Of a DNA stretch of 34,443 bases, positions 12,584 through 30,914 are shown piece after piece; position 1 is the stretch's first letter; every line of letters starts with the position of its first letter. The notes under the pieces are model-generated. The model was given only the letters and a program-made list of their open reading frames with translations, was not told the DNA's origin and did no database searches. The translations under genes were made by a program, and so were the position numbers. This DNA comes from Candidatus Kaiserbacteria bacterium. GTDB taxonomy: Bacteria > Patescibacteriota > Minisyncoccia > Phycocordibacterales > UBA918. The DNA lies in assembly GCA_024653575.1 (NCBI GenBank), contig JANLIJ010000076.1, positions 1 to 34,443 of the forward strand, written 5' to 3'.

Positions 12584-12656
12584 GCCGCCTTAGCTCAGCT
12601 GGTAGAGCAACACTTTTGTAAAGTGAAGGTCCTCAGTTCAAGTCTGAGAGGCGGCT
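12584..12656 (+). tRNA. tRNA-Thr (anticodon TGT), discriminator U, CCA not encoded
   Basis: GCCGCCT/AGGCGGC acceptor, GCTC/GAGC D-stem, loop TTTGTAA (TGT), T-arm CTCAG-TTCAAGT-CTGAG. Confidence 0.92.
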
Positions 12657-28022: not shown

Positions 28023-28149
28023 AGAGTGTGTCATTAAAATTCACAAATCCAAGGCGTCAAATCGTAATTGTGTGAGGCGTATTCTATATACGATGAACCA
28101 ATTACGATGCAGACAACGCAGGATTTGTGGGTTTTAAGACATGCTCTTA
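28023..28149. repeat. Dispersed structured element (MITE-like), copy B, abutting the thrS stop codon
   Basis: On minus: TAAGAGCATGTCTTAAAACCCACAAATCCTGCGTTG...GCCTTGGATTTGTGAATTTTAATGACACACTCT; ends complementary. Confidence 0.75.
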
Positions 28150-29907
28150 GAGTGCCTTCGTATCAATCTCTGTAAGGAGATGGTTTCCGAGTCTACTGAG
28201 TGACATCTCCACCGACTCACCCTTTCGTGATTCGAGCGTCACATTTTTTGCGGTGACTTCTTTATCTCCTACGACGGCAAAGTATGGGAGTCTATCGGTC
28301 TTTGCGTTTCTGATGCGCTTTCCGAGGGATTCATTACTGTCATCGAGCGTAGCCCGAATACCGATCGCCTTCAGCTCTTCATATACTTGGCGCGCATATT
28401 CGCTATGTATTTCTGATACAGGAATGATTCGGATTTGCTCAGGCGAAAGCCAAAGCGGAAAGTTGCCTGCGGTGTGTTCAATATAGACACCAAGGAAACG
28501 ATCGATCGTGCCGAGGAGCGCTTTATGAATCATGACAGGCGTCTTCTTCGTTCCGTCCTTGTCTGTGTATTCGAGTCCAAAACGCCCCGGTTGAACGAAG
28601 TCGAGTTGTTCAGTTGCACACTGCCATTCACGGCCGAGTGCATCAATAACCATGATGTCAATTTTGGGACCATAGAAAGCAGCCTCACCCTTTGCTATCC
28701 AGTAATTAAGCTCCAACTTTTTTGCAACTGTCTCAATTTTTTCTTCTGCCATTTTCCAGAGTTCGTCATCACCGAGATACTTCTCGCGATTTTCGGGATC
28801 ATGAAATGAAAGGCGTGCTTTAAACTCCATACCAAGTGCACCATAGAGTGTCTTAATCATGTTCATGATATTTTCAAACTCTTGCTCGATTTGGTCTGGA
28901 CGACAGAACACATGCGCGTCATCTTGTGTGAGTGAGCGAACACGGGTAAGACCGCCAAGTTCTCCAGTTTTTTCGTCACGGTAGCAGGTCGTCGTTTCCA
29001 TATAGCGGATAGGGAGGTCACGGTAGCTTCGTGGTCGACTTACATATATCTGAGTGTGGTGTGGACAGTTCATCGGTTTGAGTGCAAAGGAGTCATTCGA
29101 CTCTTGACTCTGCACGAGAAAGAGCTCATGTCCGAATTTGTCCCAGTGACCAGAAGTCTTATAGAGGTCAATCTTTGTGATGTGTGGAATCCATACTTTC
29201 TCGAAACCACATCGTGCCTGAAGTGACTCAGAGAATTTTCCGAGTTCATCGCGAAGGATTGTCCCCCGAGGTGTATAGAGGGGGAGACCAGATCCTACGA
29301 GCTCTGAGAATGTGAAGAGATCGAGCTCTTTTCCGATCTTTCTATGGTCGCGTTTTTTTGCTTCTTCAACTTGTGTGAGATGTGTGTCGAGTTCTGTTTT
29401 ACTATCAAATGCAAGTCCATAGATGCGGGTGAGCATTGGGTTTTTTTCACTCCCACGCCAGTACGCACCGGCAAGAGATGAGAGTTGGAATGAGTCGGCA
29501 TCGATGTCATCTGCAGGAGAATCACAGTGTCCACCACGACAGAGGTCGGTGAATTCAAAATGGCCTTCACCGACAGTATAGAGGGTGATTACCTCATTAT
29601 TTTTTTCGAGTTCGTTGATGAGTTCTGTTTTAAAGAGGTTGTCTTTAAATACTTCACGCGCCTCATCGGGAGTTACGACTCTGTGAGAAAACGACTTCCA
29701 CGATGGAAGCGCTTTTCGCATGTTCTTCTCAATTTGCTTCAGGTCATCATCCTTTGGCGCCGGCCCTCCGCTGAAGTCAAAGTCATAGTAGAAACCGTTG
29801 TCGATCGCGGGACCTATCGTTGGTTTTGCGTGAGGAAAATCTCTCCGTACGGCAAGGGCGAGGAGGTGAGCAAGTGTGTGTCTTTTATGTTCTAGGTTAT
29901 TTTCCAT
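28147..29907 (-). CDS. thrS: Threonine--tRNA ligase lacking the N-terminal TGS domain
   Basis: Start reassigned to MENNLEHKRHTLAHLLALAV at 29907; FTDLCRGGHC, MNCPHHTQIYVSRPRSYRDLPIRYMETTTCYRDEKTGELGGLTRVRSLTQDDAHVFC. Confidence 0.93.
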   Translation of the reverse strand: MENNLEHKRHTLAHLLALAVRRDFPHAKPTIGPAIDNGFYYDFDFSGGPAPKDDDLKQIEKNMRKALPSWKSFSHRVVTPDEAREVFKDNLFKTELINELEKNNEVITLYTVGEGHFEFTDLCRGGHCDSPADDIDADSFQLSSLAGAYWRGSEKNPMLTRIYGLAFDSKTELDTHLTQVEEAKKRDHRKIGKELDLFTFSELVGSGLPLYTPRGTILRDELGKFSESLQARCGFEKVWIPHITKIDLYKTSGHWDKFGHELFLVQSQESNDSFALKPMNCPHHTQIYVSRPRSYRDLPIRYMETTTCYRDEKTGELGGLTRVRSLTQDDAHVFCRPDQIEQEFENIMNMIKTLYGALGMEFKARLSFHDPENREKYLGDDELWKMAEEKIETVAKKLELNYWIAKGEAAFYGPKIDIMVIDALGREWQCATEQLDFVQPGRFGLEYTDKDGTKKTPVMIHKALLGTIDRFLGVYIEHTAGNFPLWLSPEQIRIIPVSEIHSEYARQVYEELKAIGIRATLDDSNESLGKRIRNAKTDRLPYFAVVGDKEVTAKNVTLESRKGESVEMSLSRLGNHLLTEIDTKAL

Positions 29908-29946
29908 ATTTTGCCGTTGGTTAACTGTTGTGAATAAAATAAAAAG

Positions 29947-29989
29947 CGTCCGAGCAAAAATACGACGAAGTCGTATTTTTGCTCGGACG
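29947..29989 (-). terminator. T-box regulatory terminator, 20-bp perfect arms
   Basis: CGTCCGAGCAAAAATACGAC-ttc-GTCGTATTTTTGCTCGGACG then a U-rich tract (minus strand). Confidence 0.85.
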
Positions 29990-30077
29990 ATCTTTGCAAA
30001 TGCAAACCCGCGGTTCCACCGAGCTTTCGGGCTTTTTCCCGACACTTCATTCACAGATTAGGGAAGAAAATCCTCCG

Positions 30078-30103
30078 CACTATTCCATTCGAATGGAATA
30101 GTG
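30078..30103. repeat. Perfect 26-bp palindrome within the thrS leader
   Basis: CACTATTCCATTCGAATGGAATAGTG. Confidence 0.95.
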
Positions 30104-30227
30104 GTGCTGGCGGTTGGTAGGCGCCACAACTTCTGTCCTGTATATCCTAGCGTGTCCATTGATATTGTCAATTGCCATAGGGCTGGGCTATTTTATTTGT
30201 CGGTCGTGTAAGGTAACATATTTGTAT

Positions 30228-30914
30228 ATGTCCAAGAAACTTAAGGGAGTATCCCTCGCTGGCCTGCAAAAACTAATTGAGGAGATTTATGGAGTGCCTG
30301 ATGATAGGCTCTATTCTATTGAAGATATGCTTACGCATCAACAGCGTTTTGCCATGAGATCATTGAAGGGCATCAGAAAAGGTGATCTCAAAAAGATAAA
30401 ACTCAATTTAATGATTGCCTTGTCATGGCTCCTTGCAATCTCAAACCGTTTTCATATTGAAGTCGATGATGTTGTATGGAAAAGATTTCCAGGTGCTTGC
30501 CTCTACTGTGGAGAAAAAACATGTGAATGTAAGAGGACGAAACTAACAAAAAGAAAAACCATACGTGGGGATCTTTTACGTAAACCAAAAACGCTTAATG
30601 AATGGCAATTACTTTTTAATAAAATATACCCTGCGTCAGGGCGTACACTTGATGAAGCCGGCGTTCACTTTGCAGAAGAAGTTGGAGAAGTAAGTGAGTC
30701 TGTACACAACTATCTCGGGCAACACCTCAAGAGACAATTTAGTGAGATACAAGACGAGATTGCCGATGAAATTTCATGTATTTTTGGCATTGCAAATTCA
30801 GCAGGGATTGATGTTGTGACAGAGGTAGAAAAAATGTATTCAAATGGTTGCCATGTCTGTGCCCGTACTCCGTGTGTTTGTGATTTTGCTAAAGTCTCAT
30901 TACTAAAGACATAA
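30228..30914 (+). CDS. MazG-like all-alpha NTP pyrophosphohydrolase with two Cys-rich (zinc-finger-like) motifs
   Basis: ORF 30114..30914, start trimmed to MSKKLKGVSL; FAEEVGEVSESVHNYLG...EIQDEIADEISCIFGIANSAGID; CLYCGEKTCEC and CHVCARTPCVC. Confidence 0.75.
   Translation: MSKKLKGVSLAGLQKLIEEIYGVPDDRLYSIEDMLTHQQRFAMRSLKGIRKGDLKKIKLNLMIALSWLLAISNRFHIEVDDVVWKRFPGACLYCGEKTCECKRTKLTKRKTIRGDLLRKPKTLNEWQLLFNKIYPASGRTLDEAGVHFAEEVGEVSESVHNYLGQHLKRQFSEIQDEIADEISCIFGIANSAGIDVVTEVEKMYSNGCHVCARTPCVCDFAKVSLLKT

Follow-up and report, generated by a model that had tools for sequence, protein, structure and literature searches.

The leader of the threonyl-tRNA synthetase gene (thrS) of a Candidatus Kaiserbacteria bacterium, whose genome has a size of 1.03 Mb, raises the question of whether it is a T-box riboswitch and to which kind of T-box it would belong. 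According to a review, a long Stem I bearing an elbow-binding tip is generally required in transcriptional T-boxes, and ultrashort stems are those of translational ones (PMC7583486). An early survey described T-boxes in Firmicutes, Actinobacteria, Chloroflexi and Deinococcus/Thermus, with rare cases in Proteobacteria (PMC2494555), and the TBDB class II model was applied to Actinobacteria genomes (PMC7778990). Within the open-licence literature, which was the scope of our search, no paper was found that deals with T-boxes in Patescibacteria, CPR or Saccharibacteria. The window analyzed here is the whole 34,443-nucleotide stretch of contig JANLIJ010000076.1, and all positions refer to it. The original prediction had proposed that thrS is controlled by a T-box, possibly with an ultrashort Stem I, in a CPR-like genome. 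The origin agrees with the nearest named relative carrying the same leader, a Patescibacteria group bacterium (JAIEOU010000001.1), whose leader equals that of the same-family genome G006 in model score and, by eye, in sequence.

A T-box leader upstream of thrS

The leader lies on the minus strand, between a divergent gene that starts near 30231 and the thrS ATG at 29907 (Table 1). In the 5' part, the promoter is followed by ACAGA, AGTTG, the specifier hairpin, the 26-nt palindrome, the GGAGGA-TTT-TCTTCC hairpin, CTAA and TCTGT; the 3' part consists of TCGGG-AAAAAG-CCCGA, then GCTCGG-TGGAACC-GCG ... CGT-CCGAGC, and then the 20-pair terminator with its U-tract. The 209-nt leader folds with an energy far below that of shuffled sequences (z -6.8; 0 of 200 shuffles as good). 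A GTG-started open reading frame at 30054 that reads through the T-box was rejected as a chance open frame, the conserved protein starting at ATG 29907. Matches to SNORA20 and other Rfam families on the plus strand were below gathering score and fall on the terminator palindrome. The divergent gene (30229-30914, plus strand) has a 330-bp intergenic region in common with thrS, and its protein resembles MazG by eye.

Table 1. Features of the thrS leader and the gene that it precedes
Feature	Position	Strand	Basis
Predicted promoter, TTGACA (30171-30166), 16-nt spacer, TAGGAT (30149-30144)	30144-30171	-	10/12 consensus matches, sigma-70-like
P1 5' strand ACAGA, pairs with 30057-30053	30132-30136	-	Covariation over 56 leaders
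Junction motif AGTTG (GATTG in most relatives)	30127-30131	-	GATTG in 45/56 leaders, also where P1 differs
Specifier hairpin (ultrashort Stem I), TGGCG-CCTACCAAC-CGCCA	30108-30126	-	Six aligned positions covary
Specifier codon ACC (loop CTACCAA), complement of the anticodon GGU	30116-30118	-	Loop conserved in relatives
Hairpin II, perfect 26-nt palindrome CACTATTCCATTCGAATGGAATAGTG	30078-30103	-	Altered but still perfect in same-genus leader L071
Hairpin IIb, GGAGGA-TTT-TCTTCC	30062-30076	-	Predicted fold
Junction CTAA	30058-30061	-	CTAA in 50/56 leaders, also where P1 differs
P1 3' strand TCTGT	30053-30057	-	Covariation
Stem III, TCGGG-AAAAAG-CCCGA, conserved AAGTG just 5'	30027-30042	-	Four aligned pairs all covary; aligned to RF00230 Stem III
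A1 5' strand GCTCGG	30019-30024	-	98% of cells paired; both-side changes in three of six pairs
T-box bulge TGGAACC, in which TGGA is the complement of the tRNA 3' end UCCA	30012-30018	-	UGGA before thrS in 59/63 cores
A2 5' strand GCG, pairs with CGT 29989-29987	30009-30011	-	97% of cells paired
A1 3' strand CCGAGC, also part of terminator 5' arm	29981-29986	-	Sequence and covariation
Intrinsic terminator, 20-pair hairpin 29989-29947, then U-tract CTTTTTATTT	29936-29989	-	Hairpin fold
thrS, threonyl-tRNA synthetase, regulated gene, 586 aa, ATG start	28147-29907	-	NCBIfam TIGR00418 650 bits vs cut-off 384; start from alignment with relatives

The T-box core that had been noticed, GGTGGAACCGCG, was found at 30020-30009 and is the sole match in the window, even with one mismatch permitted. 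The core match alone is not rare, as 25 of 100 shuffles contained a match with at most one mismatch. A search with the Rfam T-box model (RF00230), which had been suggested as a check, gave a mixed answer: the model does match the leader (30136-29980, E 2.8e-4), and its score of 27.2 bits is below the gathering score of 93. The same was seen in related genomes, with sub-threshold matches in 56 of 99 relatives and above-threshold matches in 0 of 99, so that the standard model at its own threshold overlooks these elements. In nearly all identified cases, in the own and the related genomes, the genes behind the matches code for aminoacyl-tRNA synthetases; read from their translations, they are nearly always thrS, aspS or ileS. 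The low score thus reflects an unusual form of T-box and not a chance match.

What decides the question is conservation across homologous leaders. When 25 thrS leaders were aligned, pairing was present in 93.2% of the cells that make up P1, the specifier hairpin, Stem III, A1 and A2. Of the 25 pairs, 16 have changed on both sides, and 0 of 500 shuffles come close; when partner columns were shifted by one to three positions as a control, pairing fell to 30–38%. The covariation expected from the original prediction is therefore present, and this comparison establishes the structure at the level of sequence and confirms the leader as a T-box riboswitch.

Within the order, a covariance model built from the 25 leaders matched 64 of 297 genomes, spread over 41 of 166 genera; phylum-wide, it matched 42 of 379 genomes. 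All strong matches that were read lie upstream of thrS, and weak matches in the phylum also precede other genes. Altogether, 57 distinct thrS-type leaders share the plan P1-GAUUG-hairpin(CUACCAA)-hairpin interval-CUAA-P1'; the search that yielded them demanded the loop motif, and this set is therefore unusable for counting the specifier codon.

A P1-closed junction in place of a long Stem I

Transcription is predicted to start near 30137. In 24 of 25 related thrS leaders, a promoter-like site ends 8–14 nt upstream of the AGA of P1 (in 23 of them, it agrees with the consensus at 9 or more of 12 positions), and the transcription start is therefore expected at P1 in these organisms as well. Since the promoter ends just upstream of P1, a long Stem I has no room. 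Consistent with this, the thrS leaders showed no long Stem I bearing the elbow-binding tip (IDTM), and the specifier sits in an apical loop, just as it had been remarked that no canonical long Stem I is obvious. The distance from P1 to the core has a median of 101 nt.

P1 itself, which was absent from the original prediction, is by its covariation a long-range helix (ACAGA/UCUGU) that closes a multi-helix junction. In 56 leaders (one leader, L125, whose motif was misread by the script, is omitted from this count), its first four base pairs are intact in 223 of 224 cells, with 17 different sequences, and over five pairs the observed pairing total was reached by 0 of 2000 shuffles. In distant leaders P1 is swapped entirely (UUGA/UCAA, CGAA/UUCG, UCCU/AGGA, AAAC/GUUU and others), with GAUUG and CUAA retained. 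An alternative long-range register, AGAUUG/UAAUCU, was rejected; it is broken in the window and in L024, L038 and L071, and CAGA/UCUG covaries instead. The window leader deviates from its relatives by AGUUG in place of GAUUG and by a C-C mismatch that tops the specifier stem, and both deviations also occur in the sister leader L071. It appears from these alignments that the P1-closed junction, with its nearly invariant GAUUG and CUAA, takes the place of the long Stem I tip and the S-turn Stem II.

Two further stems suggested originally were upheld. The palindrome at 30078-30103 (hairpin II) is kept as a perfect hairpin by L071 despite base changes; in other leaders its position is filled by unrelated hairpins, and minimum-energy folding puts two hairpins into the hairpin II/IIb interval in 34 of 57 leaders. 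TCGGG/CCCGA, proposed as a Stem III analogue, has the covariation and the alignment to Rfam given in Table 1.

Specifier hairpin and cognate tRNA

The small hairpin with ACC in its loop, which had been put forward as the specifier, is located at 30126-30108. Its stem shows both-side changes at all six aligned positions, with 93% of cells paired. Counted by reading, ACC lies in a hairpin loop in 26 of 27 thrS-linked T-boxes, which had been collected with the Rfam model, blind to the specifier hairpin. In one thrS leader, L011, the ACC hairpin is lost.

The host genome has tRNA-Thr with anticodons UGU, GGU and CGU, of which only GGU matches ACC. The likely ligand of the leader, judged by this codon match, is tRNA-Thr(GGU), encoded elsewhere in the genome, outside the window. 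Its discriminator, U, is complementary to the bulge UGGA. Thus, the original prediction of a U discriminator was correct, and its choice of the tRNA-Thr at 12584-12656 was not: this is tRNA-Thr(UGU), whose anticodon is mismatched to ACC. Within the loop, the U that precedes the codon and the A that follows it would extend this pairing, to A37 and U33 of the tRNA.

The codon and the bulge can also be followed across genes. Of 63 cores before thrS, 59 have A as the bulge base; before aspS, the base is C or U (UGGC/UGGU) in 38 of 38 cores, and before ileS it is U (UGGU) in 3 of 3. The thrS and aspS bulges fit the discriminators of tRNA-Thr (U) and tRNA-Asp (G). The discriminator of tRNA-Ile is A, which the ileS bulge would fit. 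The apical loops of aspS leaders in the same order contain GAC in 26 of 36 cases and AAC in 6 of 36 (in a few cases the loop was assigned with some uncertainty), and the ileS leader L026 has ATC in its specifier loop. Specifier codon and bulge base thus both follow the downstream gene. Comparison with the related genomes bears out the proposed control of thrS by a T-box and shows, at the level of sequence, that codon and bulge correspond to the gene.

Several leaders depart from this picture. In L112 (G310, thrS) the specifier (ACG) and the bulge (UGGG) are changed together, and the G could wobble-pair with the U discriminator. In L138 (G108, thrS; 1400-1600), core and Stem III lie right behind a promoter-like site without a specifier hairpin, and this is possibly a Stem I-less or a decaying T-box. 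AAC (Asn) apparently replaces GAC (Asp) in the apical loop of L019, L020, L031, L041 and L044, which precede AspRS-like genes in other families; these loops may point to a synthetase serving tRNA-Asn or to a switch of sensing.

Antiterminator, terminator and proposed mechanism

The antiterminator is complete, with six A1 pairs, the seven-base bulge UGGAACC and three A2 pairs. As the original prediction had it, GCTCGG (30024-30019) pairs with CCGAGC (29986-29981), and the latter is also part of the 5' arm of the 20-bp terminator stem (29989-29947), which is followed by a U-tract. Because the A1 3' strand is the terminator 5' arm, the two structures are mutually exclusive, a relation that the sequence itself establishes. 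Predicted folds agree: the leader without the terminator 3' arm folded into the antiterminator, and with this arm it folded into the terminator. An automatic search found a terminator overlapping the A1 3' strand in at least 46 of 57 thrS leaders, and this is a lower bound, because the script overlooked several visible terminators.

We consider it highly probable, given these features, that the leader is a transcriptional T-box acting by antitermination with uncharged tRNA-Thr(GGU). RNA polymerase would start at about 30137. P1 would close the junction that bears the specifier hairpin and the further hairpins, Stem III would come next, and ACC in the loop would pair with the GGU anticodon. The 3' end UCCA of an uncharged tRNA would pair with the bulge UGGA and stabilize A1/A2, so that CCGAGC is withheld from the terminator and thrS is transcribed. 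With a charged tRNA, bulge pairing would give the antiterminator no support, the 20-bp terminator would form, and transcription would stop before thrS. The binding of tRNA, the sensing of its charge and the effect on transcription are what we infer from the structure. If so, bacteria with tiny genomes are predicted to have retained a means of sensing tRNA charge at synthetase genes, thrS and aspS among them.

Other explanations of the leader have to be weighed against this. It might be a translational T-box, as in Actinobacteria with an ultrashort Stem I, that masks the ribosome binding site, and the specifier hairpin does resemble the ultrashort Stem I of the reviewed translational T-boxes. 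However, the 20-bp hairpin and U-tract overlap the A1 3' strand, here and in at least 46 of 57 relatives, and the terminator ends ~40 nt before the ATG and so leaves the translation start uncovered; we regard this reading as very unlikely. The original comparison with ultrashort translational Stem I elements thus holds for the specifier hairpin and fails for the type of switch, since the switch ends in an intrinsic terminator. That the leader is a decayed T-box remnant, functionless in this genome, is slightly less probable still. The low Rfam score and the change from GATTG to AGTTG would fit decay, but every helix is intact, promoter and terminator are intact as well, and hairpin II remains perfect in the same-genus leader L071 despite base changes.

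In E. coli, thrS is under autogenous control by the synthetase, which binds mimics of the anticodon arm. Autogenous control of this kind, in which threonyl-tRNA synthetase would bind hairpins mimicking the tRNA-Thr anticodon arm, could account for a short stem with a seven-nucleotide loop in front of thrS. However, the loop carries the codon ACC and not an anticodon, a comparable design with GAC occurs in aspS leaders, and control of this kind would give no explanation for the antiterminator and the conserved UGGA bulge; its probability is about as low as that of a remnant. Least probable of all is ribosome-mediated attenuation, in which a threonine-rich leader peptide would act on the same terminator. 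An intrinsic terminator ahead of a threonine-related gene would be expected in this case too, but bulge, specifier loop and P1 are conserved as non-coding elements, and the absence from the leader of an open reading frame of at least 20 aa with a run of Thr codons also counts against it.

Relation to known T-boxes

The leader has a UGGN bulge between A1 and A2 whose variable base is complementary to the cognate discriminator, a specifier codon matching the amino acid of the downstream synthetase, and exclusive antiterminator and terminator. With canonical transcriptional T-boxes (RF00230, TBDB class I) it has in common Stem III, the UGGN bulge, A1/A2, the overlapping terminator, the codon-anticodon specifier and an aminoacyl-tRNA synthetase gene downstream. 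In contrast to these, neither the long Stem I tip nor an S-turn Stem II was found (the latter is absent in some canonical members too), and its specifier lies in the loop of a 5–6 bp hairpin, with a P1-closed junction instead. With class II translational T-boxes, whose Stem I is intermediate or ultrashort (actinobacterial ileS; PMC7583486), it shares a short Stem I without the elbow-binding motif (IDTM) and an antiterminator-like core; however, the regulated gene is thrS and not ileS, and an intrinsic terminator is found instead of ribosome-binding-site sequestration.

In the same order, the T-boxes before aspS and ileS (for example L006, L010, L026 and L298) also have a short apical specifier hairpin, the core and a terminator. 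The aspS type differs in having a K-turn-like base (ACC-GAU-GA ... GA-GGU) and usually a Stem II with an AGUAGAA-like strand, whereas the thrS type has P1 and GAUUG/CUAA. An S-turn-like strand is common in the aspS leaders (24 of 36) and nearly absent from the thrS leaders (only 1 of 57), by which the two types differ. The aspS type resembles the architecture with short Stem I and Stem II of actinobacterial ileS. The host's own aspS T-box, L298 (G000:C36), has its core at locus position 1367 and a GCAG/CTGC hairpin with GAU in its loop; it was not among the matches of the Rfam genome search.

T-boxes as such already occur in the phylum, with above-threshold Rfam matches elsewhere in 13 of 379 genomes; the unusual feature is an ultrashort specifier stem coupled to an intrinsic terminator. 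We lean towards the view that the thrS leaders make up a T-box class of their own, which is transcriptional, lacks an elbow clamp and has its tRNA reader rebuilt as a P1-closed multi-helix junction. In such a class, the 7-nt apical loop could pair with up to five anticodon-loop bases (UACCA with U33-GGU-A37), and GAUUG/CUAA would shape a junction that replaces the S-turn and the IIA/B pseudoknot of canonical Stem II. If this is true, fast transcription-coupled tRNA sensing needs no Stem I elbow contact. With matches to short transcriptional T-boxes in 41 genera of one Patescibacteria order and RNAs of ~150–200 nt, the long-Stem I rule becomes directly testable.

Two other observations concern the genes. 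Several thrS genes that lie behind these T-boxes (L018, L051, L067, L107, L113 and L115) seem to start at the catalytic domain (MEERDHK...), apparently without an editing domain. In other orders of the phylum (L136, L139, L140, L149), cores precede argG-, valS- and glyS-like genes and have other leader shapes.
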